From Caenorhabditis elegans (taxonomy: Eukaryota; Nematoda; Chromadorea; Rhabditida; Rhabditidae), in NCBI RefSeq assembly GCF_000002985.6, contig NC_003279.8, positions 13,454,001-13,518,000 on the forward strand: a DNA stretch of 64,000 nt, read 5' to 3'. The notes under the pieces were generated by a model. The model was given only the letters and a program-made list of their open reading frames with translations. It ran no database searches and had not been told where the DNA came from. Numbering within the stretch: position 1 is the stretch's first letter; each line of letters opens with the position of its first letter. Below are positions 1,193-44,900 of the stretch, in pieces. Made by a program: the position numbers and the translations under genes.

Positions 1193-1515
1193 CTTTTTTT
1201 TACAAAATTCGGTGAAAATTTGAAAATTATTCGTTTCAGAATCAAAAATTGTGCGAAAAAAAGTTGTAGTTTTTGTGGTTCTGAATAATTTAAATTAAGT
1301 AGGGAAAACAGATTTTCAGCGACAACAATCGACACAATGTCTTAATTGTAAGCCTCTAAATTGTAAGATTTAATTGTAGGCAAAAATCCGAAAAATAAAA
1401 TAAATTACAACAAAGGAGAAATCAAATGTTAAAAAACCCGCGAAAATTGAAAAAAAAAACCATAAAAACTCAAATTTTTCTGAAAATTCAAAAATTTCGC
1501 AAAAAAAAAACGAAT
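1193..1515. other. Convergent 3' spacer
   Basis: Short AT-rich spacer between the small peptide gene (+) and the ints-8 stop codon (-). It presumably holds both 3' ends. I see no other structure. Confidence 0.4.
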
Positions 1516-4500
1516 TCAAACATGTAGTCCAAAATAGATGGAAGAGAGTGCAGTGAGGAATTTGGTAGTTCTTCGATTGATTTCTTGTGTTGCAAGTACC
1601 TGAGGTACATTCTTGTTCGCCGATAGGGAATTCGCTCCGGTATACTGCAAAAAAACATGGATTTTTAGATTGAAACACGCTTTAATTAGTATTGGTATAG
1701 ATTTTAAGCTACAAACTATAAAAGGTATATCTGTGTAGATTATAGTTTGTAGTCTGTTTGTAGTCAAAACTACAAACTACAACCTATTCTCAGTTTCGCA
1801 CAAACATTATAGTTTATAGCGAATTTATGTAATCTCTAAGCTTCACTCAATTCTTTTCACTGTTAAAAATGATAAACTGTCCATCAAACACTACAAAAAC
1901 TATAAACTACACACTTTTATGTATAAATTTACATTTATAATTGTATACGTTAAATAAAAAACTTGAAATAAATACAGTGTGGGAAAGTTCTATAGGACCC
2001 CCCCTAATTTGAAGGTTTGAGGAACTTCCGAAAATTTTTTTGAAAAACTGCTAATGCCGTTCGTTTTTAAATTGAAAAAAACCTATATACATTTTTTTCC
2101 AGAAGTTTATCTCAAAAACTGAGGTCGCGCTGGAAAAAACGTCAAAATCCAGTGTGAAACTTCTATAGGACCCCCCGTTTTTTTTCACGATTTTTACTAA
2201 AATCAACAGATTTTGGAATTTTTGACAAAGCTCAAATCAAGTTTGAGTTAGAAATGAGTTCATATAAGCAGTTTTGACTTTAAAAAATTAATACGAAATG
2301 TTCTCGTGGGATCTCCAGACTGGTTCTGATTCTTCCGATCTTTGATGTTCAAGTCTGTTTCAAGCTTCCTGGTGCTCTCGGTAATGCCAAAACTTGATAA
2401 ACTCTCTTTAACAAGTTCCTACTAAAATTCCTAGCACGCACTTTAGATGTTTCGACTGTGTAGTCAAGCTGATTTGGCAAAATATGCAGCAGGAAACAAT
2501 GGAAGGCTTATCAGGAATCAAATCGTTTTTCTTTGATTACAAGGTTCCATGGGACCAATATTTCAAGTTAAATTGTCCCTCACAGATGTTATTTACTATT
2601 TTTTGCGTGAATTATTAAATGTGGAATTGTGGCATGTGTTGTGGCACACATATAGAGGCTGGAAAGCTTACTTCGAAAGCAGTCTAACTTGCAATGCCTC
2701 GAGGATCTGCCCTTTCGGACACTGAACGCGCTCAGCTGGATGTTATGAAATTGCTCAATGTGTCCCTGCATGAAATGAGTAGGAAAATTTCCCGTTCTCG
2801 ACACTGTATTCGCGAGTATCTGAAGGATCCGGTGAGCTACGGTACATCTAAAAGAGCTCCTCGTCGCAAAGCTCTCTCCGTGCGTGACGAACGAAATGTG
2901 ATTCGTGCTGCCTCCAACTCCTGTAAGACGGCAAGAGATATTCGCAATGAGCTTCAATTGTCTGCTTCAAAAAGGACCATCCTCAATGTCATCAAACGAT
3001 CTGGTGTAATCGTTCGTCAGAAACTTCGCCCTGCTCCGTTACTCTCTGCAGACCATAAACTCAAGCGATTGGAATTTGCTAAGAACAATATGGGAACGAA
3101 TTGGAGTAAAGTGAGAATTTAAAAAAGCAAGAGTGAATAATTAGGATCATTGTTTTAGGTTGTCTTCTCCGATGAAAAGAAATTCAATCTCGATGGGCCT
3201 GACGGTTGCCGCTACTATTGGCGCGATTTGCGCAAGGAACCAATGGTTTTTTCGAGACGTAATTTTGGAGGAGGAACGGTGATGGTTTGGGGAGCGTTCA
3301 CGGAGAAGAAGAAGCTTGAGATACAGTTCGTCAGTAGCAAGATGAACAGCACTGACTATCAGAACGTCTTGGAACTGGAGCTCTCCAAATATCTTCGTCA
3401 CTACTCCAGAAAAGACTTTAGATTTCAGCAGGATAATGCGACAATCCATGTGAGCAACTCAACCCGCGACTATTTCAAGCTCAAGAAGATCAACCTTTTT
3501 GATTGGCCAGCTCGAAGTCCTGATCTCAATCCAATCGAAAATTTGTGGGGGATTCTTGTCCGTATCGTGTATGCTCAGAACAAGACTTACCCAACAGTTG
3601 CATCGTTGAAGCAAGGAATTCTCGACGCTTGGAAGTCTATTCCGGACAACCAGCTGAAAAGTTTGGTCAGATCAATGGAGGACAGACTGTTTGAGATCAT
3701 CCGCACACAAGGAAACCCGATTAACTATTGATCCTTTCTTGATTTTAGTATATGAATGTTCTGTTGTTGATCAAAAATAACTGCAACTTGTTAATACGCT
3801 GTTTCTGACTGGTTTCTTGGGGATGGCGTAAAAATGTTTATGGTGTGTGTGCTAGGAATTTTAGTAGGAACTTGTTAAAGAGAGTTTATCAAGTTTTGGC
3901 ATTACCGAGAGCACCAGGAAGCTTGAAACAGACTTGAACATCAAAGATCGGAAGAATCAGAACCAGTCTGGAGATCCCACGAGAACATTTCGTATTAATT
4001 TTTTAAAGTCAAAACTGCTTATCTGAACTCATTTCTAACTCAAACTTGATTTGAGCTTTGTCAAAAATTCCAAAATCTGTTGATTTTAGTAAAAATCGTG
4101 AAAAAAACGGGGGGTCCTATAGAAGTTTCACACTGGATTTTGACGTTTTTTCCAGCGCGACCTCAGTTTTTGAGATAAACTTCTGGAAAAAAATGTATAT
4201 AGGTTTTTTTCAATTTAAAAACGAATGGCATTAGCAGTTTTTCAAAAAAATTTTCGGAAGTTCCTCAAACCTTCAAATTAGGGGGGGTCCTATAGAACTT
4301 TCCCACACTGTATGTTTTCAATGTTATCTAGACTAATTATGAATTTGCATTTTTTAATATATATTTTTTTTTAATATTTTTTTAAAATATATATATATAT
4401 TAAAAAATGCAAATTCATAATTAGTCTAGATAACATTAAAAACATATTTATTTCAAGTTTTTTATTTAACGTATACAATTATAAATGTAAATTTATACAT

Positions 4501-29000: not shown

Positions 29001-32000
29001 CGTCAATTTGCCCATTTGCCGGAAATTTTCAATTCCGGCAAAATGCCGATTTGGCGGAAATGTTCAATTCCGGCAATATGCCGGTTTGCCGGAAATGTTC
29101 AATTTTTTGGCAATTTCTCGATTAGCCAGAAACTTTCAATTCTGGCAATTTGTCGATTTTCCGGTTATTGTCCCGGCGCTAGATAGTGCAATCGTGCTCC
29201 AATGTCAATCGAGAAAGACCCGCCTCCATAATTTGGGTCTCGATAGGAATTTGCGGCAAAAACGCAAATTCCTACGTTACTAATAGTTTTTAATGATGTT
29301 TTTTTTACGTTAAAATTGATAAAATAAACATATTATGTAGACGCCTAAAAATGAGAATTTCTTGGTCTCACCACGCAAACAGCGGGTTACTGTAGCTCGT
29401 GTCGATTTACGAGCCGGCGGCAGTAATTTTTATTTAATTTCACAAGATTTTGACATGCCTTCTTAAAGGCGCACTGTTCTTTTTTCACTAAGATGGGTCT
29501 CGGCGCGAAAAGAGGAATTTTTCAATGAATTTACTTCATTTTTTAGCGAATTTTTTCGTTTTTTTTTTCATTTTTTCGGTGAAAAATAGTTTTCAAAACT
29601 GAGTTTAAAATATTTCTAACCGAAAATTGAGAAGAAAACTCTGAAATTCGCTGAAAATGAAGTACATTCATTGAAAAATTCAAGGAAAATAGAAATCCGA
29701 AATACCATAACCTTTTTCGCGCCGAGACCCATTTGAATAAATATATGCGCCTTTAGGAAGGCATGTCAAAACCTTGTGAAATTATTATGCCGGCTCGTAA
29801 ATCGACACGAGCTACAGTAATTCACTGATTCCGCGTGGTGAGACCCAATATCTTTATTTCTTCAATATCGACATAAAAATCATTAGAAACAACGGAAAAT
29901 ATTGCAAAAAAAAAAAGAAAAATCATGAAAAAAGGGTGATGCTGCCAATACCTACCGAGACCCAATTAATGGGGGCGGGGTGTATTCTCAGTGGAGCGCG
30001 ATTGCAATTTGAGTTCAAAATACGCATTTTTGAAGGCTTTTTCTAATGAAAATGTCAATTTTTGCAATTTTTGCTTAAAAAATCGTGATTTTTCGCTATT
30101 CCCTACCATCACTTTCTCGGATTGCTTTCTCAAATAATCGATTCCTTGTTCACGATTATATTTGATCGTACTCAACATTTCATTGACCATACAATGACGT
30201 GAATGCCATTCCTCTATGGTTTTCGCTTGAGAAAGGAAGCTGACGACCGAAATCTTCAAAAAAAAAAAAAGATTTTTAAAATTGAAATTTCCTTGTAAAA
30301 AATGTACTTTTTCCAACTCCACGTGTCCTCCAGATTTAATGATCATCGCATTGTCAACTGGATGAGATTTATCGAGTCTGCACACTTCCTCCATATCCAT
30401 CTCCAATTTCCCGCCGATTTCACGAGAAGCGGTCAGAAACTGAAAAATTTGTTTTAAATTAAAGGTGCACTCTCACTGCAACTTTTTTTGAACGAGGGAC
30501 GAGGAAAAGCGGTTTCTAGGCCATGGCCGAGGGGCCGACAAGATTTAGCGGCAATTTATCTTGCTTTGTTTTCCGCGTGTTTTCTTTTATTTTTCACAGA
30601 TTTTTCCCGTTTTTTTCTTATTAAAACTGATAAGTAAATATTTTTTGCAGATGCTAAAACAATTTACAAGTGAAAAAATTGTGTATTCAGTCGACAAGAA
30701 GTGATGAAAGTGGTCAATGTTATATGATGGATTACGGGAATACTAAACCTAAACTTTTTTCCAAACATGATACATATGCTGCATAGATGCTGAAAGTACC
30801 TGATTTTCATAACGAGACCGCTGAAAAAGTTTTGAGGTTTTCAAAATTCAACTTTTTGTGCAAAAATTTCTACTTTTTCACCAAAAACGTTGAATTTTGA
30901 AAACCTCAAAACTTTTTCAGCGGTCTCGTTATGAAAATCAGGTAGTCTCAGCATTTAAGCAGCATATGTAAGTTTAGGTTTTGTATTCCCGTAATGCATC
31001 ATATTACAATGCCCACTTTAACCGCTGCTTGCCCACTGAATACATAATTTTTTTACTTGGAAATTGTTTTAGCATCTGCAAAAAATATTTACTTATCATC
31101 TGTGAAAAATAAAAGAAAACACGCGGAAAACAAAGCAAGATAAATGGTCGCTGAAACTTGTCGGCCCTCGGCCACGGCCTAGAAACCGCTTTTCCTCGTC
31201 CCTCGTTCAAAAAAAGTTGCAGTGCCTCTGTGGGGAAATTGCTTTAAAACATGCCTATGGGGTCACAATCAGGGGTGAGCGGCAATCGGCGATCGGCGAT
31301 CGCCGATGAAATTTTATAGTCCAAGATAGACCCCTCTGAAGAAGGAAAAAAGGAGTGCTTTTCGTTGCCTAATATTCCTGTTTTTATAAAAAATTATTTG
31401 AAAGAGCTCTTAAAATTAGGATTTTAAAATTGAAAAAAATTAGACGCACACTGATCGGCAATCGGCAATCGGCAAGCGGCGATCGCCGATTTTTTTTTGG
31501 CAATTTGTGATCGCCGATCGCCGAAAAAAAATTTCCATCGGCGATCGGCGACTTTTTTGGGCGGCTGCTCAGCCCTGGTCACAATGGCCAAATAGCATGA
31601 TTAAAAAATTCAAAAAAAATTTCTCAATTTTATATGATTTTTTTTTGAAAATTGAAAAAATCTCAGTTTTCCCCCTAATTCCTATTTGAATTACCGCCAA
31701 TTGAACTCGTTCGATGGAGCGCGCTTGCATTATTTTTATTACTTTAATTTATTTATTAACATTATTTTCACTGATTTTCTTCCCTTTTTTTTGTGTTTTT
31801 GATGGGAATTGGAATGAAAAACCAAGATAAATGCAGAATGTTTGTTAAAAATCACTGAAAAAGCGTAAAACTGTACTCATTATTTTACTGTTTTACGTAT
31901 TTTCAGTGATTTTGCAAACAAACATTCTGCATTTATCTTAGTTTTTCATTCCAATTTCCATCAAAAAAAATACAAAAAAAGTGAAGAAAATCAGTGACAT

Positions 32001-33404
32001 AGTGTGAATAGATGAAATACATTTATAAAAATAATGCAAGCGCGCTCCATCGAACGAGTTCAATTGGCGGAAATTCAAATAGGAATTAGGGGAAAAACTG
32101 AGATTTTTTCAATTTTCAAAAAATCATATAAAATCTAGAGAAATTTTTTGAATATTTTAATCATGATATTCGGTCATTGTGACCCCATATGCGTGTTTTA
32201 AAGCAATTTCCCCACAGAGTGGAGTACACCTTTAAAGGAGGACTAACGGTTCGGACGATTTTGAACATATAGACCCAAAATGAGCTCAAATGAAGGAATT
32301 TCGCAATGAAACTGCTCAAAAATTTTTTATGGCGGTTCAAAATTTTGAAAAAAAATTACACTGATTTTAGCTAAAATCACGAATTTTTCTCTTTTTTTCG
32401 TGCCACATCCATCCGAAGTTGTCTTTTTTGGAATTACCGTCCTTTATTACATATATTGGTAGTTTATCTCATTTAATTTCGTCGATTAAAGTACATTTAT
32501 CGGCGATAGGTAACCAAAAATCATCGAAATTGGTTACCTATCGGCTTTGAATGTACTTTAATCGACGAAATTAAATGAGATAAAATACCAATATATGCAA
32601 TAAAGTACGATAATTCCAAAAAAAGCTAACTTCGGATGGACGTGACACGGAAAAATGGGAAAAAATCGTGATTTTAGCTAAAATCAGTGTAATTTTATCA
32701 AAATTTTGAACCCCCATAAAAAATTTTTGAAAAATTTTTGAGCAGTATCATTACGAAATTCGTTTATTTGAGCTCATTTTGAGTCTATACGTTCAAAATC
32801 GTCCGAACCGTTAGTCCTCCTTTAAAGGTGTACTCCACTCTGTGGGGAAATTGCTTTAAAACACGCATATGGGGTCACAATGACCGAATATCATGATTAA
32901 AATATTCAAAAAATTTCTCTAGATTTTATATGATTTTTTGAAAATTCGGAAAAAAGCCCGTACCGCGAGCTTATCGGCCTTAAGCAAATAGGCCTTGTGA
33001 TGAGCATGATCTCCAAGAAAAGCACACGCTCCACACAAAACTCTCTCTTTTCTGTAGAAAAGTGTCGGAGACTTGACGGATTCCTTCTGCTTCAACGCGT
33101 AACCGCATCCCGGATAGGTGCACGCGAAGAATTGGCTGTGCGGAGCCACTTGCAAGCACATTGAGCACGTTGCGATGGTATCCGAGTACGCCGAGCACTC
33201 TTCAACGGGATTTTCGTCCACACTTTCTTGATAATTTGTGATATCCGGCAGACTCGACGTTTCGCCGTCCGGCATTCGCTCGAAATTCTCGATTGTGTGA
33301 GAGTTTCGCACTGAAAATCGTGAATTTCATATTAATTTTATCATTTTTCATCGGAAAAACTTACTCATTGTACAAATTTGATCCGTTAGTTGATCGATTA
33401 TTTC
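26019..33404 (-). CDS. B-box-like zinc-binding, coiled-coil protein
   Basis: Exons in transcript order: 33365-33404, 32964-33310, 30308-30439, 30107-30253, 28289-28382, 28028-28233, 26019-26213. Starting at the ATG at 33368 it encodes 374 residues. The first exon is also open upstream (EIIDQLTDQICT), so it may continue into an unseen 5' exon. Residues about 50-106 hold C50-C53, C65-C70, C94-C97 and H103/H106 (CSMC, CTYPGC, CGAC, GDHAHH), a B-box-like zinc site. Helical segments follow (EEWHSRHCMVNEML), then a glycine/phenylalanine stretch GGFGGFGFGFG and a charged helical C-terminus (AADYLNELTHSKTEKK). TRIM-like or ubiquitin-linked roles are possible, but no RING is visible. One acceptor is the atypical TTTGAAG at 30254. 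The introns are packed with palindromes. Confidence 0.8.
26480..27300. repeat. Large palindrome in intron of B-box-like gene
   Basis: About 400-bp arms centred near 26885. Both arms contain CGATTTTCCGGAAAA, the word GGAGCCTTTGAG (complement CTCAAAGGCTCC) and GTAATTTTTCTATATTTTGA. A partial third copy of an arm segment occurs at about 27395-27480. The arms differ at scattered bases, so this is an old fold-back element. Confidence 0.75.
28390..29165. repeat. TTTGCCGG tandem array with higher-order repeat
   Basis: Units of about 33-36 bp built of TTGCCGGAAATTTTCAATTC / CCGGCAA words, each internally palindromic. A block of about 180 bp (roughly 28550-28730) is repeated almost unchanged directly after it (roughly 28730-28910), so units were also duplicated as a block. 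Long open frames here (up to 216 codons) are a by-product of unit length. It lies in the intron between exons 28289-28382 and 30107-30253. Confidence 0.85.
29218..29980. mobile_element. Nested inverted-repeat element
   Basis: Outer ends CCCGCCTCCATAATTTGGGT at 29218 and, inverted, CCCGCCCCCATTAATTGGGT at about 29961-29980. Inside lies a second inverted pair (29362-29848) with TTGGTCTCACCACGC ends and long arms around ACGAGCCGGC. Both levels share a GGGTCTCG/CGAGACCC word. This is either one element with two-tier ends or one element inside another. No coding. Confidence 0.65.
30463..31226. mobile_element. Palindromic TTAA element, right end lost
   Basis: Begins at TTAA (30459-30462) with AGGTGCACTCTCACTGCAAC. 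The arms pair around a centre near 30870 and include GAACGAGGGACGAGGAAAAG. The right arm stops at GTTGCAGTG (31223), about eleven bases short of its expected end, and runs directly into the next palindrome. Confidence 0.8.
31227..32231. mobile_element. Palindromic TTAA element with hAT-like insert
   Basis: Fold-back element whose arms contain TGTGGGGAAATTGCTTTAAA, CAATTGAACTCGTTCGATGG and AATGCAGAATG. Its right end AGGTGTACTCCACTC abuts TTAA at 32232-32235; its left end is truncated at the junction with the preceding element. A 308-bp hAT-like insertion lies in the left arm. The motif TGGAGCGCGCTTGC is present in both arms (31715-31728; complement at 32036-32049). A second family member is at 42989-44151. 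Confidence 0.8.
31270..31577. mobile_element. hAT-like element with CGATCGGC core
   Basis: 308 bp with ends CAGGGGTGAGCGGC and, inverted, CAGGGCTGAGCAGC. It is flanked by an exact 8-bp duplication GTCACAAT (31262-31269 and 31578-31585). CAGGG ends and an 8-bp duplication fit the hAT superfamily. Two clusters of CGGCGATCG words frame an AT-rich middle. Non-coding. Confidence 0.85.
32236..32821. mobile_element. Palindromic TTAA element, copy 2
   Basis: Near-identical to 12819-13407: ends AGGAGGACTAACGG, TTAA on both sides (32232-32235 and 32822-32825), fold-back centre near 32530. It is flanked on both sides by inverted identical pieces of the neighbouring palindrome (about 32110-32231 and 32826-32945). 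Confidence 0.88.
32826..32945. repeat. Inverted fragment of the 31227-32231 palindrome
   Basis: About 120 bp that is the base-for-base complement of about 32110-32231. It breaks off inside the arm eighteen bases before the exon at 32964. It preserves the uninterrupted GTCACAAT site, i.e. the empty form of the hAT-like target. Confidence 0.85.
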
Positions 33405-33579
33405 CTGAAACTACATTTTTCGTGAGATTTTTAGGTAAAAATTGAATAAAAACGCTGAAAATAATTTTTAAAGTCGATTTTATCGGGAAAAAACCAAGAA
33501 AAACTCTGAAAATCGGCGGAAAAACAAGAAAAAATGGGAAAATTAATTAATTCGAAAATTTTAAACTTAGCAAGCCGTT

Positions 33580-33626
33580 CTCTGCGTCTTCACTCTCTCG
33601 CGCGTGCCAATGGAGCGCGTTTGCAC
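33580..33626 (+). promoter_or_regulatory. Composite promoter-like motif
   Basis: CTCTGCGTCTTCACTCTC, then a GC-rich spacer, then TGGAGCGCGTTTGC. The same ordered pair is at 35300-35344 and 60373-60418, both just upstream of gene starts. Here it lies upstream of the first recognised exon of the minus-strand B-box-like gene, but oriented +. Confidence 0.5.
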
Positions 33627-33643
33627 TATTTTTTTTTTAATTT

Positions 33644-34982
33644 GAGGGGGTACGTTTTCGTAAGGGGATTTTTTCGTAAGGAACGCTTTCAGTAGGGTAA
33701 TGTGCGGCGCGCCTTTTCGCAAGCCCGCCGCACAGTCCTTCGCAATGCGCCGCACGGCTTTTTGCAATGCGCCGCACGCTTCTTCGTATTTATTTATTTT
33801 TCCAACAGGAAATTTCGAACGGAATTCAATTAAAAACGGATTTTTAATGGAAATTAATTAGTTTTATTCGAGCTAAATACGGATATTTTCAGAATTTTCG
33901 ATGACAAAAACGGGTTTCAATCGATTTCGAATCGATCAAAATTAATATTAATCGAAAATGAGCGTTTCCTTCCCGGAAAAAGAAGAACTTGATGCTGAGA
34001 GTGATCCAGGCGGAGCCAAACGATTAAAATGATAGAAGTGATTTTTTATTCAGTCGAAATGGAAAATAAAACTGCAAACAAAAGTTAATTCGATTAAATT
34101 AAGTAAGAAAAATCATGGCGAAATTTGGATAACCTGAGTATGGAAAATTGTTTCTATAATCCAATGGCACAGAGGTAAACAAAGAGATCAGTGATAGCAT
34201 TTCGGAATTTCCATAAAAGGGAAAAGTTTCTCATTAAAAGCACTGAAACCGGTATAATTCAAAAACACTGAAGTACAGAAATCGGGGTTTTTGTATAATG
34301 GCACAGCGGTTGTTCGATTTCCGGATCGTCTCTTCAAGTCTAGGATCAATGATTTTGATAGTTGAATGGTCTTTTGAATCACTCCTCGCAGGTTTTGATA
34401 GTCGTTGTGATGATACATTCTCTGGAAAACAAAACAAATCGATGTTATATACCTATTTGAGAACTTAAAAAACTACAAAAAGAAACTTGCCTTCAGCTTG
34501 GAAAATTGCTGCTCACTCGGGTTGTTTGTGAACGCTGAAAAATACTTTTCACTCTTCAATTAATCTTTAGACATCAATAATACTTGCCTCTAAAAAAGCG
34601 TTTGGCTCCGCTTGGATCACTCTCAGCATCAAGTTCTTCTTTTTTCCGGGAAGGAAACGCTCATTTTCGATTAATATTAATTTTGATCGATTCGAAATCG
34701 ATTGAAACCCGTTTTTGTCATCGAAAATTCTGAAAATATCCGTATTTAGCTCGAATAAAACTATTTAATTTCCATTAAAAATCCGTTTTTAATTGAATTC
34801 CGTTCGAAATTTCCTGTTGGAAAAATAAATAAATAAATACGAAGAAGCGTGCGGCGCATTGCAAAAAGCCGTGCGGCGCATTGCGAAGGACTGTGCGGCG
34901 GGCTTGCGAAAAGGCGCGCCGCACATTGCCCTACTGAAAGCGTTCCTTACGAAAAAATCCCCTTACGAAAACGTACCCCCTC
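33644..34982. mobile_element. 1.34-kb element with 380-bp inverted repeats
   Basis: Ends GAGGGGGTACGTTTTCG and complement; inverted repeats 33644-34022 and 34599-34982; exact 8-bp target duplication TTTAATTT at 33636-33643 and 34983-34990. The arms contain GC-rich GCCGCACAG/GTGCGGCG words unlike the host. No transposase is present. The unique interior carries most of a small spliced gene. The 8-bp duplication suits hAT, P or Merlin-type transposition, but the ends match none I know. Confidence 0.88.
34188..34664 (-). pseudogene. Broken three-exon gene carried by the element
   Basis: Exons 34588-34664, 34491-34534 and 34188-34421 join in frame downstream (GAKRFFR - AFTNNPSEQQ - KRMYHHNDYQNL) and end at TGA. 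Both introns use GC donors (GCAAGT). The first exon lies in the inverted repeat. From its ATG (34664) the frame dies after eleven codons because of one extra A in a run; the left repeat has the intact run, giving SVSFPEKEELDAESDP. The rest reads as a soluble, basic helical protein that I do not recognise. It may be a captured host gene fragment or a remnant of the element's own gene. Confidence 0.6.
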
Positions 34983-35299
34983 TTTAATTTCGCGAAAAAT
35001 AGTTTTTTGCCGAAAATAGAGTTAATTAGGCTAAAAAGCTGTTTTACAATCAATTTTGTTAAAGAAAAACCGCAAAAAACCTGAAAATTGACGAAAAAAA
35101 GCCAAAAAAAAAAAAAATTTTGCTTTTTAGTTCTACGCAGGAAAAGTGCGGCGATGGGTTTAAAACTAGAGAAATATTAGAAATCGTTAAATTTAATAGT
35201 AGAAAATTACAAAAAACCTAGATTTTCTGTGGAAAATACACGAAAAACAACGAAAAACTTTGGGAATTAAATTAAAAATTCGAAATCTAGCAAATCGTT

Positions 35300-35344
35300 C
35301 TCTACGTCTCCACTCTCTACCGCGTGGCGATGGAGCGCGTTTGC
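35300..35344 (+). promoter_or_regulatory. Composite promoter-like motif upstream of esterase D
   Basis: CTCTACGTCTCCACTCTC, GCGTGGCGA, TGGAGCGCGTTTGC, about 250 bases before the esterase D start and in the same orientation. Closely resembles 33580-33626 and 60373-60418. Confidence 0.55.
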
Positions 35345-35591
35345 TTTTTACTGATTTTAATTAATTTTAATTAATTGAATTTCAGCGTATTTTCGCTGAA
35401 TTTCTAGTGTTTTCCCGATAAAAACAAATCGAAATTCAACGTTTCCACTAATTTCAAGCTTTTTTCCTCTATTTTCAGGAAGTATACGCAAAAATCTGTA
35501 TTTTTCTCTGACGCCTCACTCGGCAATTTTCCACAATTTCTTATCAATTTTGTCTCTTGAACAGTCAAAAAATATCGATTTTTCAGAGAAA

Positions 35592-37055
35592 ATGGCTGCC
35601 ACTTTGGTTTCGAGCAATAGAAGCTTCAAAGGACGGCAATTTGTGTACAAACATGCCAGGTTTGATGAAAAAAATTGAGAAAAAATATATAAATTTAAAA
35701 ATTTAAATTATTTTCAGCTCGACAACTCAATGTGAAATGACATTTGGAGTGTATATTCCGGATCACAAGCCAGACGAGAAGCTTCCAGCGCTTTTTTACC
35801 TTTCCGGCCTCACCTGCACCCACGCGAATTTCATGGAAAAGTCGGGATTCCAGCAATTTGCCTCTAAGCACCGTCTCGTCGTTGTTCACCCGGATACATC
35901 GCCACGTGGAGTCGATGTGGACGGCGATTCGGAAAGTTGGGATTTCGGAAAGGGAGCCGGATTTTATGTGAATGCTACTGTCGAGAAATGGGCGAAAAAC
36001 TATCGAATGTACGATTATATTGTGAAGGAGCTGTTGGAAGAGGTGGTGCCCTCCGTTGCGCCGATTGATTTGGCGAAAATTGGTGAGAAATTCGAGAATT
36101 CTCTGTGAAAATCGACAGATTCAAGTTGGTTGAGGCTCAGAGACTACAAACTACACAACTTGGGAAGCCTCACTCAAATTTGCCAGGCGCAGTGCTATGA
36201 AAAATGTCGAAAAACTGAACAAATTCGGAGTTTTTCGACTAAAATTCTTATTTTTTCGCTCAAAAACTTCAATTTTCATGGTTGAGGCTGATGAATTTTT
36301 GTAGTTTGTAGTGTGAGCCTCAACCAAAATCCGGAATTTTTTGGTGAGGCTCATGTATTTTTGTAGTTTGTAGTGTGCGCCTCAACCAAGAATCGACCAT
36401 TTTTGGTGAGGCTAATGAATTTTGTAGTTTGTAGTTAATAGCCTCAACCAAGAATCGGAACTTTTTTGGTGAGGCTGATAAATTTTGTAGTTTGTAGTGT
36501 GAATTTCAACCTAAATTTACTTGAAATTCATGTTTTTAAACTAAAATTCCAATTTTTCAATAATTATTAATGATTTTTACAAAAAAAAAACTTTTAAAAA
36601 AAATCACAAATTTCACACAAATTGAAAAAAAAACCAATTTTTCAGGAATCTTCGGTCACTCAATGGGCGGCCACGGAGCTCTAACAATCGGTCTCAGGAA
36701 TTCATCGAAATTTCAATCAATTTCCGCATTTGCACCAATTTGCAACCCAATCACCGTTCCATGGGGCCAAAAAGCACTAACCGGATACCTGGGTGACGAG
36801 GACAAATCCACGTGGAATCAATATGACGCTTCTGAAGTACTAAAAGCCTATTCCGGCCCGAAACGCGAGATTCTCGTCGATCAAGGTGCGGCCGACAATT
36901 TCCTGGCTCAACTCAAACCAGAAACGCTGAAATCGAAGGAAAACGCGGAGATTGTGGTCAGAATGCAAGCGGAATTCGATCATTCGTATTATTTTATCGC
37001 AAGCTTCATGGCTGATCATTTCGAACATCATGCAAAGATTTTGAATAAGATTTAA
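35592..37055 (+). CDS. S-formylglutathione hydrolase (esterase D)
   Basis: Hydrolyses S-formylglutathione to formate and glutathione in cytosolic formaldehyde detoxification. Exons 35592-35659, 35718-36082 and 36646-37055 give 280 residues (human ESD 282). Motifs: SGLTCTHANFMEKSGFQ (substrate/oxyanion region), nucleophile elbow GHSMGG with Ser150, Asp228 in DQGAADNFL and His257 in FDHSYYF, a complete catalytic triad. The start is 5 bases after TTTTTCAG (acceptor ending 35586), so SL1 splicing is likely. Intron 2 (36083-36645) holds several hairpin modules. I recall the worm gene as Y48G10A.1. Confidence 0.95.
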
Positions 37056-37766
37056 TTGAGGAAATATATTTATTTATATTTATTTTATTTTCGTCACTTA
37101 TTTAAATTTATTTAAATTTCAATGTTTTTACACTTTTTCAAGAAAAATTTCAGATTTTGTTCGAGTTAAATATTGGTCTTATGTTATTTTAACTCCCAAC
37201 ATTCGTGTAATAAATAAATTATTTTTAGACGCAGACAGGTTAAGTGTCTTAACACAGTACAGTGTAGTCTTCGGAAACGGAATGAGGACGATGATAATGA
37301 TAAAATAATTGATGTTTTCTATTTTTTGTTCATATTGTGTGTATTTTTTTAATTCTAAATTAATACTATTAGTAAGAAAATTTTAATGAACAAAAAATAT
37401 TTATTAGAACAAGAAAACAAATTAAAAATTGAGAAAAAGTGGCAAATGCTGCGGTTTTTTTTGGAAAAATACACGTAAAGCGTCACAAAATAAAATAAAA
37501 AATATATTTACAAGTTTGAATTTTCTAGAAAATTTTTAGGAAAAAGCGAGAGAAAACCGGAATTTTCGAGGTTTCAATTGGAGGGAAATGGCTCCCGGGA
37601 GCAAGAAAAGTGGGCGGGGTTTGATTAGTAAGGATTTTGAAAGAAAATTAAATTTTTAATACAAAAAAAATTTTTTTGGAAAATTTTTTAAAAATTCAAA
37701 ACAAAATTTTTTTTTTCGAAAAATGTAATTTTTCCAAAATTTGTTTGAGACTTTTTATAAAGCAAG
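37056..37766. other. Convergent 3' spacer
   Basis: Lies between the stops of esterase D (+) and the SH2 gene (-). AT-rich, with no repeat module; AATAAA-like words occur at about 37210. Nothing else seen. Confidence 0.4.
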
Positions 37767-39298
37767 CTAAACAGGTTTTAATTGATTTTTCAACACCAAA
37801 TGATCGGCGCCACGTATTGGAAGTGGATGACGTCGGTAGAATGAGATGGCAGAGCTTATCGATCGGAATAGGGGACCTTCTCCTGTAAGAATAGGGGAAT
37901 TTTTAGGAGACATTTTAGTTTTTTTTTGGACCAAATATTGGAGAATATGGTTTAAAAAAAGAGTTTTGTAAAAAAATTCTGAAAAAAAAAATGTTTTGAA
38001 AAAAAATTATTTTTTCAAAATTTCCAAAAAAAAATTTTTTTTTCTGAAAATTTTTCTAATTTATAAAAAAATCCTCTTAAATGTTCCTGTACCTTTAAAA
38101 TAGTCAAAACAATTTTCAAAAAATTGTAGTTTGTAGTGTAAGAGCCTCAACCAATTTTATTCGGCATTTTAATGCATTAATTAATTAATTAATTATGACG
38201 AATAAAATTGGACGTTTTTTTTTTTCAAAATTCTATGATTTTTTTGAAATTTTTGAAATTTCACGGTTGAATTCTGAGGTAGATTACAAGTTTTTCGAAT
38301 TTTTCATTTCAAAATCTGATTTTCCGTTGAAGCTCTCAGTGCAAACTATAATTATATGGAAGTATACTGGAGTATACATATTAGGTTTTTCGTAGAGTTA
38401 CAGAATTTTGAAGTCTAAATTTGAAGGATTATGATGAAAAGTGATATATATTGTATTGTTATTCTTTAAAAAATGTTTAAAAAATTTTCTCAAATTTTTC
38501 AAAAAAAAAAAACTTTTTTTTTGAAAAATTCGAAAAAAAATGTTTTTTTCCAAATGTTTTTCGTTAAAAAATCGATAAAAACTCACCAATAACCCATTTC
38601 TCGCCATTCCACTCAATTTTAATATGCACAACACCTTTTGTAGCCCGTAACGATAAAGCAGCACTCCCCTCACCACGTGATCTGAGCAAATAGTCCCCCA
38701 AATTTCGATTTTCAAGCCTTTTTTCCGCTTCAACTCTATTCATATTTTGTTCCATGTAGATTTCTGAGTCGCTCTGCAATAAATTATCGATTTTTCGGGA
38801 AAAAAATTGGAAAAAACGGAGGTGACCGAGTTTTTTTCTCAATTTTTGAAAGTTTTGTACCTAAAATATTGTATTTCTCATTTGCATATGTAAAAAAGGC
38901 ATTTTTGGAGTGTGGCCGAGTTATATTTTTTCTAGGCCACGTTGCCTGAAATTCAAATTTCCCGCCAAAAATGAAAACTTACAGGCCTCCGACGTTTACT
39001 CTCGTCACGTGGCACTTTCCGTCTTGCGTCGACTGCTGAATTTCCGATTTGAACGAGCTGATTTACGAACGAGGAGCTCGAGCAGAGTGACGGTGAGCCT
39101 GAAACTATAAACTACAAACTACACACTACAAACTATAAACTCACCATGTGGAGAAACCTTTGCATCGCCGGCCGCACTTGTCGATAGCCTAACATCGGCG
39201 GTCGAGAATCTCACAGAATTGGGTCTCGCCAGGAATTCCCACGGAGTATCGTAGTGACCTTCGGATGATCCATAGTCTGCTGCCATTGTCATCATCAT
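37767..39298 (-). CDS. Small SH2-domain adaptor protein
   Basis: Exons 39145-39298, 38983-39098, 38587-38773 and 37767-37882 encode 190 residues. Residues about 91-185 form an SH2 domain: NRVEAEKRL helix, the FLVR-equivalent YLLRSR with phosphotyrosine-binding Arg121, VHIKIEWN strand, and a C-terminal FYRRHPLPIRG segment. The usual first Trp is replaced (IYMEQNM), a mild divergence. The N-terminus has YDTPWEF (residues 16-22), a phosphotyrosine-type docking motif like those of SHB/SHF adaptors, and the middle is basic. There is no kinase or SH3. The likely role is a cytoplasmic tyrosine-kinase signalling adaptor. Three Met codons start the frame; translation may begin at any. Gene name not recalled. 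Confidence 0.9.
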
Positions 39299-39329
39299 TT
39301 TATCCTATTTGGCATGCCTGTAATAAACT

Positions 39330-40020
39330 AGACTAGTTGTTTTTTTTTTAATTTTTTGAAAAAACGACTGTATCTCAAAAACCAGGAGAGCTAGAGAAAA
39401 GTTGTCAACTGACAAATTATTCTACACAAAATTCTGCACATTTTTGTCTCTTACACCAACTTTCTACTTTTCCTCCCCGCCGAGATACACCGCTTCAAAG
39501 TTTTGGAGGAGAGAGAGTGTGGGGGGAGAGCAGAGTGCAGCCTGCTACAGCTCAAAACTTTGAAGCGGTGTATCTCGGCGGGGAAGATTGATAGAAAGTG
39601 AGTGCAAGAAACAAAAATGTTTAGAATTTGATTTCCTATCGAATGGAATAAAGTTTATAATTTTTGGGACTTTTTGAAATTTTCTCAAAAAAAAAGTTGT
39701 TTTTTTTGAATTTTTTGTTAAGCGATAGAGATGAAATTAATATAAGTTTTATCTCTTACAACATTTTTTGTAATCCTTTTTACTACCATCTAGCCAAAGT
39801 TAGAAGCGTTTAAAGTTTTAAAGGGGAGAGAGTGTGGAGGGAGGGGAGAGCGCAGCCTGCTATAGCTCAAAACTTTGAAGCGGTGTATCTCGGCGGGGAG
39901 GAAAAGTAGAAAGTTGGTGCAAGAGACAAAAATGTTTAGAATTTGATTTTCTATCGAATGGTATAACATTTTCCTAAAAATTCTAGGAAATTTTTTTTTC
40001 GAAAATTTTCAAGTTGGGAG
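39330..40020. repeat. Inverted and direct repeats around a CGGCGGGGA word
   Basis: AAAACTTTGAAGCGGTGTAT occurs at about 39547 and 39867 and inverted at about 39482-39502. It is followed by CTCGGCGGGGA and by a GA-rich GGAGAGAGTGTGG stretch. The unit (about 300 bp) therefore exists as an inverted plus direct pair. Non-coding, upstream of the SH2 gene. Confidence 0.6.
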
Positions 40021-42680
40021 AGAGAGAGTGAAAAAGAGAGATGTGCAAGAAGAGGTAATTGGATACTCTAGAAGTTTTCGGGGAGGAATAATAGGATAGG
40101 AGACCAGTAATTTGAGTGTTTGTTGTTGTCGATATTTGTGGTATATTGGAATAATGGAAGAAGTTCTCCTCTCAATGACCAGTAGGAATTTAGACAGTTT
40201 TTACAAGTGTCTTCTTGTTTTTTTTTAAATAAATTGGTTGAGGCACTGTAGTTTGTAGTTTTTAAATTCAAAAAACAATTTGGAGGCTCTTTACAAACGT
40301 GTTACAAGGAATTATTATCAACTTCGAAAAAAAAATGCAATTAATTTACAAAGTAATTATAATAAGGGTTTAGAAAAATCCACGTGGATTATGAAAATAT
40401 GTAGTTTGTAGTCAGAGCATCTTATAAATCATATTTATTTAATTTAACATTTTCAAAACTCCGAAAAACTTTGAAATTTCGAAAAAAATCAAAAAAATAT
40501 CGGAGCAATATTTAGGATATATAAGGTTTTAAAAAATCCACCTGGATTTCAGAAAAGTGTAGCTTGTAGTCTAAGCCTCAACCAATGTACTGTAAATAGG
40601 TTATATGCGAAAAAAAATTGTTTTGCAAATTTTTAAAATTTCGATTAAAAATTCAACTATGAAAATAAATAGTATATTCTATAAAATCAAGAAATACTAG
40701 TTTCAGAAAATTTATAGTTTGTAGTCTTTGCCTTAACCAATAAATTAAATATTAATATATCCTAACAATCATGTTATATTATTTAAAAATAATTTTTTGG
40801 AATTTTTAAAATTTTCGAAATAAAAATTTTGTTAACTATCAAAGTAAGAAATATTTTAATTGTTTGAATTAAGAAATACTATTTTCCAAAAAAGTTGTAG
40901 TTTGTAGTCTTAGCCTCAATCAATAGATATCCTTATATAAATTCACTCATGTTAAATATACTCTTAATCTTTTTAATTTTTTAAAGAAATTTTAAAAATT
41001 TTCAGAAAATGTTTTAACTATAATATTATATTAACGTGAATAAATGTCTAAAAAAAGCATATATTAGTTAAAAATTTGTAGTTTGTAGTGCAAAATCGCT
41101 TTCTCGCTAAGAAACCGCACCAAAGAGTCCCTTCGTACCCTATAAAAAGACTTAGGACCCTCTAGAAAAAGTGCATACAGAAAAGAGAGACGCAGAGATG
41201 AAAGAAGAAGAAGACACGGGGGAGATTAAATTGCGGTTTGAAACGATGTTAATTCGGGTTGGCACTGGTGGCTGGGAGCAAAAGAAGAAGCTTCTAAGAG
41301 AGAGAGGGGAGAGACGCAGAGAAAAGAGAGAAAAGGGGCTCACTAATGACAAAAGGATTGGGAAAAGAAAGGGACAAGCATATGATTGATTGTCTCAAGA
41401 ATCGGAAGTTCTGGAGATCTTTTGGTGAGGCTCAGCTAGGTTTTTTGTAGTTTGTAGTCTCCGAGCCTCAACTAACACTTGGTCTAGAACAAGGAAAATT
41501 CCTACCTATTTTGTTGAGGCTCAGCTAGTCTTTTGTAGTTTGTAGTCTCTCAGCCTCAACCAACTTTGACATTGCACGGTGGGACTTTTAGGAGATATAA
41601 CTTAGGATTGAGTGACCGTATAAAATTGTTCAATATATTATTGAGAAGATAAAGACTTTCTTCTGTTTCTGGTAAGTTTTCAAAAAAATCGAATGACTAT
41701 TCAGTGAAATATTAGAGTTTGAATTTGAAAATTGAAGTTTTCAGTTGAAAAATTCAAACTTTAACTGACTTTTCTGAAATTCTGGATATTTTTTGGGTAG
41801 TTTGATGTTAGTTTTATACATAACATTATGATATTACACAAATTTGTTAGGTTTTAAAAAAACAATCAAATTTTTTTTTTTTTGAAAAATTTTTTTCAAA
41901 ATTTTTTATACTTTTCAAAGTCGATATTTCAAACAATAACTAACCAAAACTGATAGGAAAAATGCAGAAAAAGATTGTTTAGCAGCTGAATGTTCCGGCG
42001 GTAACAAGAAAAAAAAGGAAAAAGAATTTACGGGCGGCAAAATTCCTTTTGTTCTTTCTAATTCCCTTGTGTTGCTCATTGCCACGTGGATAATTACCAT
42101 CAGCTGGTTTGAAAAATTGGTTGAGGCTGGGACTACAAACTACAATCCTAAACTAAAAATGGCTAAACTATTTTAATGATTTTTAAGGAAAATCCCAAAA
42201 ATATTAAAAAATTGAAAACATTGGATTTTTGTCAGTTTTCAACAATTCAAAAAAAACGTGTTTCAAATTCATATATTTTTGTAGAAATTTCACTACAAAC
42301 TACAAAATGTGAGCCTCACCCAAAAAATTTTCGAAAAACGAAGTGGGGGCTCTCTCAGCGCCGTTACATTTTTTATGAGAAAAGAGAGCAAAAAAGTGTG
42401 TTTCCTGTGAGTGAGAAACTTAGTACAACTATGCATTTGAAATTGGGTTATGTTTTGGGACAGACAGACCGAAATTTTGGAAAAAAAACATCCTGTTTTT
42501 ATTGGATTTGAAGAATTGTGACCCTGAAGAGGGAAAAAACTGCAAAATGTTGAAAAATATAAATTTTATTTAATAGTTATTAATACTAATACATATTAAT
42601 ACACATTTAATAAAACACTTTGGGAAAAGTTCATTATTTTTTAGATCAGTTAAGGTAACGACGTGTTTGAGTTCGGTAGC
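40021..42680. other. Intergenic block upstream of SH2 gene
   Basis: Holds scattered hairpin modules (about 40240, 40405, 40560, 40715, 40900, 41085, 41450, 41540, 42115). A distinct purine-rich island at 41160-41390 has GAGACGCAGA twice (41187-41197, 41311-41320). The motif reads TCTGCGTCTC on the minus strand, the orientation of the SH2 gene, so this is a candidate distal promoter. No coding frame is supported. Confidence 0.45.
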
Positions 42681-42689
42681 TAAAAATTC

Positions 42690-42714
42690 ATATATATATA
42701 TATATATATATATA
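42690..42714. repeat. AT microsatellite
   Basis: Twelve AT units at the edge of the tandem repeat field. Confidence 0.9.
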
Positions 42715-42984
42715 CATGAAGGATATAATTTATTAAAACATCTAAATTGACAACATAATCAATATATAATGTGCTACATTTTGTTAGTTGAAAGTTTTTT
42801 AATATCTCAATTTTCTGCAGAGTTACGCCTATTTGAATGTGAGTGACTAAAAGAGTAAATATCTCCGTGAAAAATTAAGTTATCAATAAATTGCTTAATA
42901 ATTAAATAATAAGCATGAAATTTGCCACACATCGTTAGTTATTAACTTTTCGATAACTATTCTCTCCACGGAGTTATAGGGGTT
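42715..42984. repeat. TATCTCAACGG-type diverged tandem repeat, left part
   Basis: Continues beyond the palindrome as 44156-44870. Units share (T)TTTGTTAGTTAACAACTTTT and TATCTC..CGGAAAATG words. Confidence 0.55.
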
Positions 42985-42988
42985 TTAA

Positions 42989-44151
42989 AGGTGGACTACA
43001 CCCTGAGGGGAAATTGCTTTAAAACACGCCTATGGGGTCACAATCAGGGGTGTGCGGCAAATCTCAAAATTTGCCGAGCTCGGCAAATTCGGCAAATCTC
43101 TTTTTTCAATATTTGCCGAGCACGGCAAATTCGGAAAATTCGGCAAATTTGCCGTGCTTAACAAACTCGGAAAATTTTGATAATTTTTGATGTTTTTTGG
43201 AACACCAAAACTACCGAATCCTTAACACACAACTGGTTTCTGAATTAGTTCCGTGTAGTATGTCTGCTTAAGCATAAAACTAACTCAACTTTGTGCCATT
43301 TTACTAAATTTTTGGCGAAAAAATCAATAATTTTAGTCAAAATTGTACTGTAAAATTTTTGACGTGTGCGGCAAATTTCGAAATTTGCCGAGCTCGGCAA
43401 ATTCGGCAAATCTACTTTTTTGAAATTTGCCGTGCTCGGCAAACGGCAAATTCGGCAAATTCGGCAAATTTGCCGCACACCCCTGGTCACAATGACCGAA
43501 TATCATGATAAAAAAATTTTAAACAATTTTCTAGATTTTATATGATTTTTTGAAAATTGAAAAATCTCAGTTTTCCCCTCATTCCTATTTGAATTTCCGC
43601 CAATTGAATTCGTTCGTTGGAGCGCGCTTGCATTATTGTCATAATTGTTTTTATTTATTTTCATTATTTCACTGATTTTATCTATTTTTGCGGGTTTTTC
43701 ATCGGAAAATGAAAGAACCAAACAAGAAAAATGCAAAATTTTTATTAAAAAGTAACTGAGAATGCCTAAAACTCTGAAATTATGCGATCCGACGACGACG
43801 AGCCTGAAATTAGTTTTATTCAGAGTAAAAGTTACTTTTTTATAAAAATTTTGCATTTTTCTTGTTTATTTCTTTCATTTTCCGATGAAAAACCCCCAAA
43901 AAATAGAGAAAATCAGTGAAATAATGAAAATAAATAAAAACAATTATAAAAATAATGCAAGCGCGCTCCAACGAACGAATTCAATTGGCGGAAATTCAAA
44001 TAGGAGTTAGGCAAAAACTGAGATTTTTTCAATTTTCAAAAAATCATATAAAATCTAGAAAATTTTTTTAAATTTTTTTATCATGATATTCGGTCATTGT
44101 GACCCCATAGGCATGTTTTAAAGCAATTTCCCCACAGAGAGGAGTACACCT
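42989..44151. mobile_element. Second palindromic TTAA element with hAT-like insert
   Basis: Same family as 31227-32231, flanked by TTAA (42985-42988 and 44152-44155). Ends AGGTGGACTACACC / complement of AGGTGTACTCC. The arms carry TGGAGCGCGCTTGC (43618-43631; complement 43957-43970). Its left arm is interrupted by the 43045-43485 insert. It has landed inside the TATCTCAACGG tandem repeat field. Confidence 0.85.
43045..43485. mobile_element. hAT-like element with CGGCAAATTTGCCG core
   Basis: 441 bp, ends CAGGGGTGTGCGGCAAAT inverted on both sides, exact 8-bp duplication GTCACAAT at 43037-43044 and 43486-43493. Two blocks of TTTGCCGAGCTCGGCAAA words flank an AT-rich middle. Termini match the element at 31270-31577; the core does not. 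Confidence 0.88.
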
Positions 44152-44155
44152 TTAA

Positions 44156-44900
44156 CGTGGGACAGATTGCCAATACTTTTTCAACCTTGTCTTTAACCGT
44201 CTATATCTCAACGGAAAATGCATTTATCAAAATATTTTTAACTAACAAAATAATCAACATAAAATTTGCTACACATCGCTAGTTATCAATCAAATTGTCG
44301 ATATCTATTTTTTTCCGCGGAGTTACAGGGGTTTAAAGTCAAAGTAAAAAACACGCTGTTCGCCAATCCTATCTTCAAATCCCCATATCTCAACGGAAAA
44401 TGTAGATATTAAAACATTGTTAATTAACGAAATAATCTACATAAAAGTTGCAAAATTTTGTTAGTAAGCAACGTTTTCATAACTGTCCTCTCCGCAGAGT
44501 TATAAAGCTTTGAAGACGGGATAGGTGACCTTCATGTTTTCTACATTGTCTTTACGCCCCTATATCTCAATGAAAAATGCATTTAAAAAGAAATTCACAA
44601 CTAGTCAGATAATATACAAAAAATTTACTACACTTTGTTAGTTAACAACTTTTCCATAACTGTTCACTCTCTAGAGTTATGGGGCTTTGAAGACTACATT
44701 CATGTCATCTACATTGTCTTTAAACTCCCATATCTCAACGAACAATGGATTTAACAAAAAGTTTCCAACTAGCAAAATAATTACCGCAAAATTCCCTACA
44801 TTTTGTTAGTTAGCAATTACTTTCTAGCTCAACTCCCCGCCAAGTTACACAAGTTTTAAAATTTTAGGTACGGAGCTATCAAGCTATCAAATAGGTCTAA
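44156..44900. repeat. TATCTCAACGG-type diverged tandem repeat
   Basis: Four or so units of about 170-180 bp: TATCTCAACGGAAAATGCAT, AACTAACAAAATAAT, CATTTTGTTAGTTA, and a GAGTTA(C/T)A near the end. Diverged 20% or more by eye. No coding. Confidence 0.7.

Follow-up and report, generated by a model that had tools for sequence, protein, structure and literature searches.

The closest described systems to the two inserts analysed here are elements of the hAT superfamily, such as hobo and Hermes, together with its MITEs. An 8-bp target site duplication of the pattern nTnnnnAn has been described for Hermes (PMC10368747) and for hobo (PMC3276498), and both insert families have it in common with these systems; the hobo motif GTNCGNAC is also near the GTnnnnAC tendency of the families, as far as these two sources describe it (PMC3276498, Table 4; PMC10368747). 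Hermes carries subterminal repeats that are bound by BED fingers (PMC10368747), and the core words of the inserts, CGGCGATCG and CGGCAAATTTGCCG, are likewise short, repeated and partly palindromic. By analogy, these words could act as transposase-binding subterminal repeats. The germline-promoter MITEs CELE2 and CERP2 (PMC9757741) are also abundant C. elegans MITEs with repeated motifs, and are likened here by description only. Among the literature matches listed, we found no published account of this insert pair and no paper on nested MITE hotspots that matched all aspects; the matches for the core motif words were chance ones, judged by their titles, and two further papers that were listed concern plants and mosquitoes.

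We analysed a window of 64,000 bases, in which the two inserts, of 308 bp (insert 1) and 441 bp (insert 2), occupy the equivalent point in two copies (A and B) of one long palindromic element. Both have CAGGG...CCCTG termini, and each is flanked by a perfect 8-bp duplication, GTCACAAT. A sequence-only reading of the window had placed the two inserts, their ends, the flanking GTCACAAT and the equal position in the palindrome, and all of these were confirmed to the base. Inserts 1 and 2 were the sole hits in the 64 kb when the window was scanned for CAGGG...CCCTG pairs that lie 100–3000 bp apart and carry a perfect 8-bp duplication. The coordinates of the locus are collected in Table 1.

Table 1. 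Features of the locus (positions are those of the window, except in the first row).
Feature	Position	Strand	Description
Window	13454001–13518000 of contig C1		assembly of 100,286,401 bases, 7 contigs
Insert 1, hAT MITE, family 1	31270–31577	+	CAGGGGTGAGCGGC...GCTGCTCAGCCCTG ends, CGGCGATCG words
Insert 2, hAT-type MITE, family 2	43045–43485	+	CAGGGGTGTGCGGC...GCCGCACACCCCTG ends, CGGCAAATTTGCCG words
Left GTCACAAT target site duplication, insert 1	31262–31269	+	
Right GTCACAAT target site duplication, insert 1	31578–31585	+	
Left GTCACAAT target site duplication, insert 2	43037–43044	+	
Right GTCACAAT target site duplication, insert 2	43486–43493	+	
Host palindromic element, copy A	31226–32235	.	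left arm 31226–31269 + 31578–31855, right arm to 32235; inverted repeats, arm matches
Host palindromic element, copy B	42985–44156	.	inverted repeats, arm matches
Empty mirror site, right arm of host A	32176–32219	-	inverted repeat, window scan
Empty mirror site, right arm of host B	44096–44155	-	inverted repeat, window scan
Partial further host arm, site empty	32826–32953	+	adjoins pal2
pal2, second, different palindrome, abutting host A	32233–32826	.	inverted repeats

The termini of the two inserts are much alike and their cores are not. The terminal 16 bp are 94% identical, and beyond them the longest match between the inserts is 26 bp and consists of short CGGC-type words, which are common to both; the cores are thus unrelated, as the sequence-only reading had stated. 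The families can be told apart up to their terminal bases, with AGC versus TGC following CAGGGGTG and with a second terminal difference of CTGCTCAGCCCTG versus GCACACCCCTG. The terminal inverted repeats of family 1 begin CAG, reading CAGGGGTGAGCGGC at one end and CAGGGCTGAGCAGC at the other.

The palindromic structure gives every host copy two mirror sites; in A and B alike, the insert occupies the left arm and the right arm has none. The left arm of A is without its ~17 outer bp, the match beginning at arm position 18. Two empty sites had been proposed before, and both are indeed empty; the first of them (32110–32231) is not a separate copy of the palindrome, being the right arm of host A itself, and the second is the partial arm that adjoins pal2. 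At 32104–32953, a 96% inverted repeat with 224-bp arms extends at either end out of pal2 into sequence of the host arm; pal2 is thus enclosed by two host arms arranged in mirror order. In another copy of pal2, at a different locus (L090:301-676), lies a family-1 hAT copy. The host palindrome may be a PALTTTAAA-type palindromic DNA element of C. elegans, to use the Repbase name, although this identity is a guess. The two are alike in being long, near-perfect palindromes with TTTAAA-like ends. The name PALTTTAAA3 appears in PMC6873666.

Both inserts belong to dispersed families. Insert 1, searched against the genome, gave 99 match rows, which stem from 34 first-pass candidates spread over six contigs; insert 2 gave more than 150 match rows when 40 of 721 candidates were scored. 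Family ends occur 1534 times genome-wide at ≤1 mismatch, against 10 for the control. We determined a target profile from fetched insert loci (L084–L132), for which 20 of 39 regions were sampled for family 2. Insertion sites with their own 8-bp duplications numbered 37 and came from 36 of the 49 loci; the other 13, in which no end pair 120–800 bp apart was accompanied by a duplication at ≤1 mismatch, were left out of the profile. The duplications match at 8/8 bases in 34 sites and at 7/8 in three, and conform to the nTnnnnAn type, with T at position 2 in 33/37 and A at position 7 in 31/37. Family 1 contributed 20 sites from 29 fetched loci (18 perfect duplications, two with one mismatch); nine of the 29 had no duplication under the size limits used, and three of the 20 sites (L106, L107 and L109) have a different right end and may represent a sub-type. 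Family 2 contributed 17 sites from 16 of 20 fetched loci, with T at position 2 in 17/17 and A at position 7 in 15/17.

These matches bear on whether the two inserts came to lie close together through local hopping or in a burst along this arm of the chromosome. Their 12-kb spacing would fit such an event. So would the location of the top-scoring further match to insert 2 (95% identical from end to end, with 40 of 721 candidates scored), which lies only 73.5 kb off on the same contig (C1:13423523-13423963; L113). However, among the same scored candidates a partial match to positions 20–405 of insert 2 is 97% identical and lies on C4, so the nearest relative of insert 2 is not clearly local; the best other match of insert 1 is on C5, at 82%, and nothing dates the two events together. 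We regard local hopping as very improbable.

The inserts had been called hAT-like from their sequence, and this assignment is borne out by the nTnnnnAn 8-bp duplications at the 37 other sites and by an element that combines a hAT domain with family-1 ends. The genome contains 13 matches to the hAT dimerisation domain, one of which (C1:11305958-11306197, minus strand) falls within L103, a locus fetched because insert 1 matches it and one of the nine family-1 loci without a duplication under the size limits. There, a 1685-bp element (L103:460-2144, minus strand) has the left and right ends of family 1 and is flanked on each side by GTGCACAT, a perfect duplication of 8 bp. Its 130-aa open stretch matches PF05699 at 44 bits (cut-off 21.4), and a second open stretch of the locus (1388–1648, minus strand) gave no Pfam match at 0.01. 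At the level of sequence, family 1 is thus tied to the hAT superfamily by a domain-bearing element that shares its ends, whereas the tie of family 2 is through the shared end and target type only. One small MITE family is in this way connected to a hAT element with matching ends. L103 also contains an exact 820-bp inverted duplication (40–859 and 2682–3501) that copies the right end of the hAT element with its flank, and, by eye from the translation, reverse-transcriptase-like open stretches.

The shared 14–16 bp ends and the same target type suggest that both families are probably mobilised by the same or closely related hAT transposases. Such a transposase would recognise the shared ends and integrate each element at a fitting target, which would be cut with an 8-bp stagger at each insertion, repair then giving rise to the duplication.

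We surveyed the palindrome family for other filled arms. A 29-mer from the outer arm occurs 352 times genome-wide at ≤3 mismatches (control, 0), and a 29-mer across the empty site 300 times at the same tolerance. The junction GTCACAATCAGGGG, by comparison, has exactly two occurrences in the 100.3-Mb assembly. Exact matches to the arm junction with CAGGGGTG are confined to A and B. A longer pattern gave two more places at 3 mismatches, C2:2299156 and C2:8081442, and both were rejected as a third hAT-filled arm: their ends are hAT-like, but the 301 bases read at each contain no palindrome sequence. No further arm with an element of the CAGGGGTG type at the site was found at ≤3 mismatches. At the right-hand junction, CCCTG was present only at A and B among 15 matches, the other 13 being without this end. 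We then read individual arms in the window and in 71 loci chosen around 100 of the 352 arms, which yielded 136 arms at ≤3 mismatches and 143 at ≤4. Of the 143, 138 were intact and empty at the site, two were filled and three were classed as other: one is cut by the end of its locus, and two keep GACCGAAT just after the site and then diverge.

The sequence-only reading had offered, as one of two explanations, that a single insert-bearing palindrome copy gave rise to both A and B and that the core of one insert was later rewritten by tandem-repeat turnover; a variant would have the core swapped by recombination at the shared ends. The equal position, the equal first 8 bp and the mere 12 kb between the inserts are what such co-amplification would produce. 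The relationships of the arms argue against it. The left arm of A is nearest to its own right arm (90%) and the left arm of B to an empty copy at L039 (95%), whereas the two filled arms are 82% identical to each other and rank 57 and 71 of 120 in each other's comparisons. A and B are therefore not sister copies, by these identities and by a tree of 121 arms, and the nearest relatives of both are empty. The maximum-likelihood tree has two gains of the filled state, forced by its starred branches, and single-gain trees made up 0% of 200 bootstrap trees, in a bootstrap that was not fully settled. Each insert, moreover, shows the features of its own family right up to its terminal bases. No similarity was found between the 3-kb flanks of A and B, so a segmental duplication that took in the surrounding sequence is rejected as well, for the 3 kb compared on each side. 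Simple co-amplification with core replacement is thus refuted by the separate dispersed families, with other 8-bp duplications elsewhere, the unshared flanks and the two gains; with the recombination variant included, we consider the explanation extremely unlikely.

Since A and B are not sisters, no other copy was seen to share an insert, the tree has two gains and the flanks are unshared, the inserts go back to two separate events. We conclude that, very probably, two non-autonomous hAT elements of different families independently entered the same 8 bp of two palindrome copies that were already dispersed. The recurrence of the position would be due to the fit of GTCACAAT to nTnnnnAn and to its presence in hundreds of copies, and not to anything special about the palindrome.

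The other explanation put forward from the sequence was a repeated insertion hotspot; its element of independent insertion holds, and for the hotspot itself the evidence amounts to a mild, unproven hint. We asked how well the target fits the preference of the families. In the 37-site profile GTCACAAT has a weight of ~8.7 times the average and ranks sixth of 321 arm positions (third by family-1 sites alone, 36th by the 17 family-2 sites alone), and in a 111-site profile its weight is 5.5 and its rank 11th. The fit to the preference is therefore real but middling. If between half and all of the 1534 family ends count as insertions (767–1534), then with 352 arms 0.015–0.031 insertions are expected genome-wide at the GTCACAAT position, and the probability of two or more is 1e-4 to 5e-4; the number of coincident pairs expected anywhere in an arm of this palindrome family is 0.006–0.023. 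Arm pairs 2–12 kb apart, with the A–B pair included, make up 15 of 4919 (~0.3%) among the listed arms, a total that excludes 31 pairs <2 kb apart. In our judgement the coincidence is rare taken alone, and milder given the many repeat families and a case picked because it was seen. The same proviso applies to what the sequence-only reading had set against itself, namely distinct families at many unrelated sites with no excess at this one: the families are distinct and occur at many unrelated sites, and at this site two insertions were seen where 0.015–0.031 were expected, in a case chosen for having been seen.

In a real hotspot, some property of the spot, such as local DNA shape or the quasi-palindrome GGTCA-CAA-TGACC in which the 8-mer lies, would draw insertions beyond the 8-bp preference. 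The mapped arms show four interruptions. Three are element insertions, namely the two hAT inserts and an insert in L066; the fourth, in L035, is a local expansion of TAA type around position 280. The hAT target is at arm positions 54–61 and the L066 insert lies between 52 and 56, so that all three element insertions (3/3) fall within ~10 bp, and the Drosophila target motifs of such elements are described as palindromes that reach past the duplication (PMC3276498). However, such hAT elements are present at the site in just two of the 352 arms, the great majority of the examined arms being intact, and among 39 sites compared no pair other than A and B shares one repeat position; a few other pairs have common flanking repeats, but at different positions. 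The L066 insert (L066:846-1486) is an unrelated palindromic element of ~640 bp that is another kind of event, since it lacks a clean duplication of 8 bp and the host has lost ~3 bases. We therefore view a hotspot of this kind as unlikely, and find it quite improbable that the spot around GTCACAAT is a structural insertion hotspot for several kinds of element, with dispersed palindromes as landing pads for younger ones.

With independent insertion as the preferred reading, the case is an ordinary nested MITE insertion, twice at one target, with a mildly surprising coincidence of place. It provides a clear natural case of nested insertion, each host copy supplying its own control in the form of its empty mirror arm, and a warning that an identical junction in two repeat copies does not establish common descent.

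Two further observations concern elements with similar ends or settings elsewhere in the genome. On C4, a family-1 copy (L100) and a family-2 copy (L129) lie ~2 kb apart, each within one of two inverted copies of another repeat but not at equivalent positions of it. At L134:206-270, a third type of core, with CGGCAATTGCCG words, is present behind a CAGGGGTGCGCGGC end that resembles the ends of the inserts.
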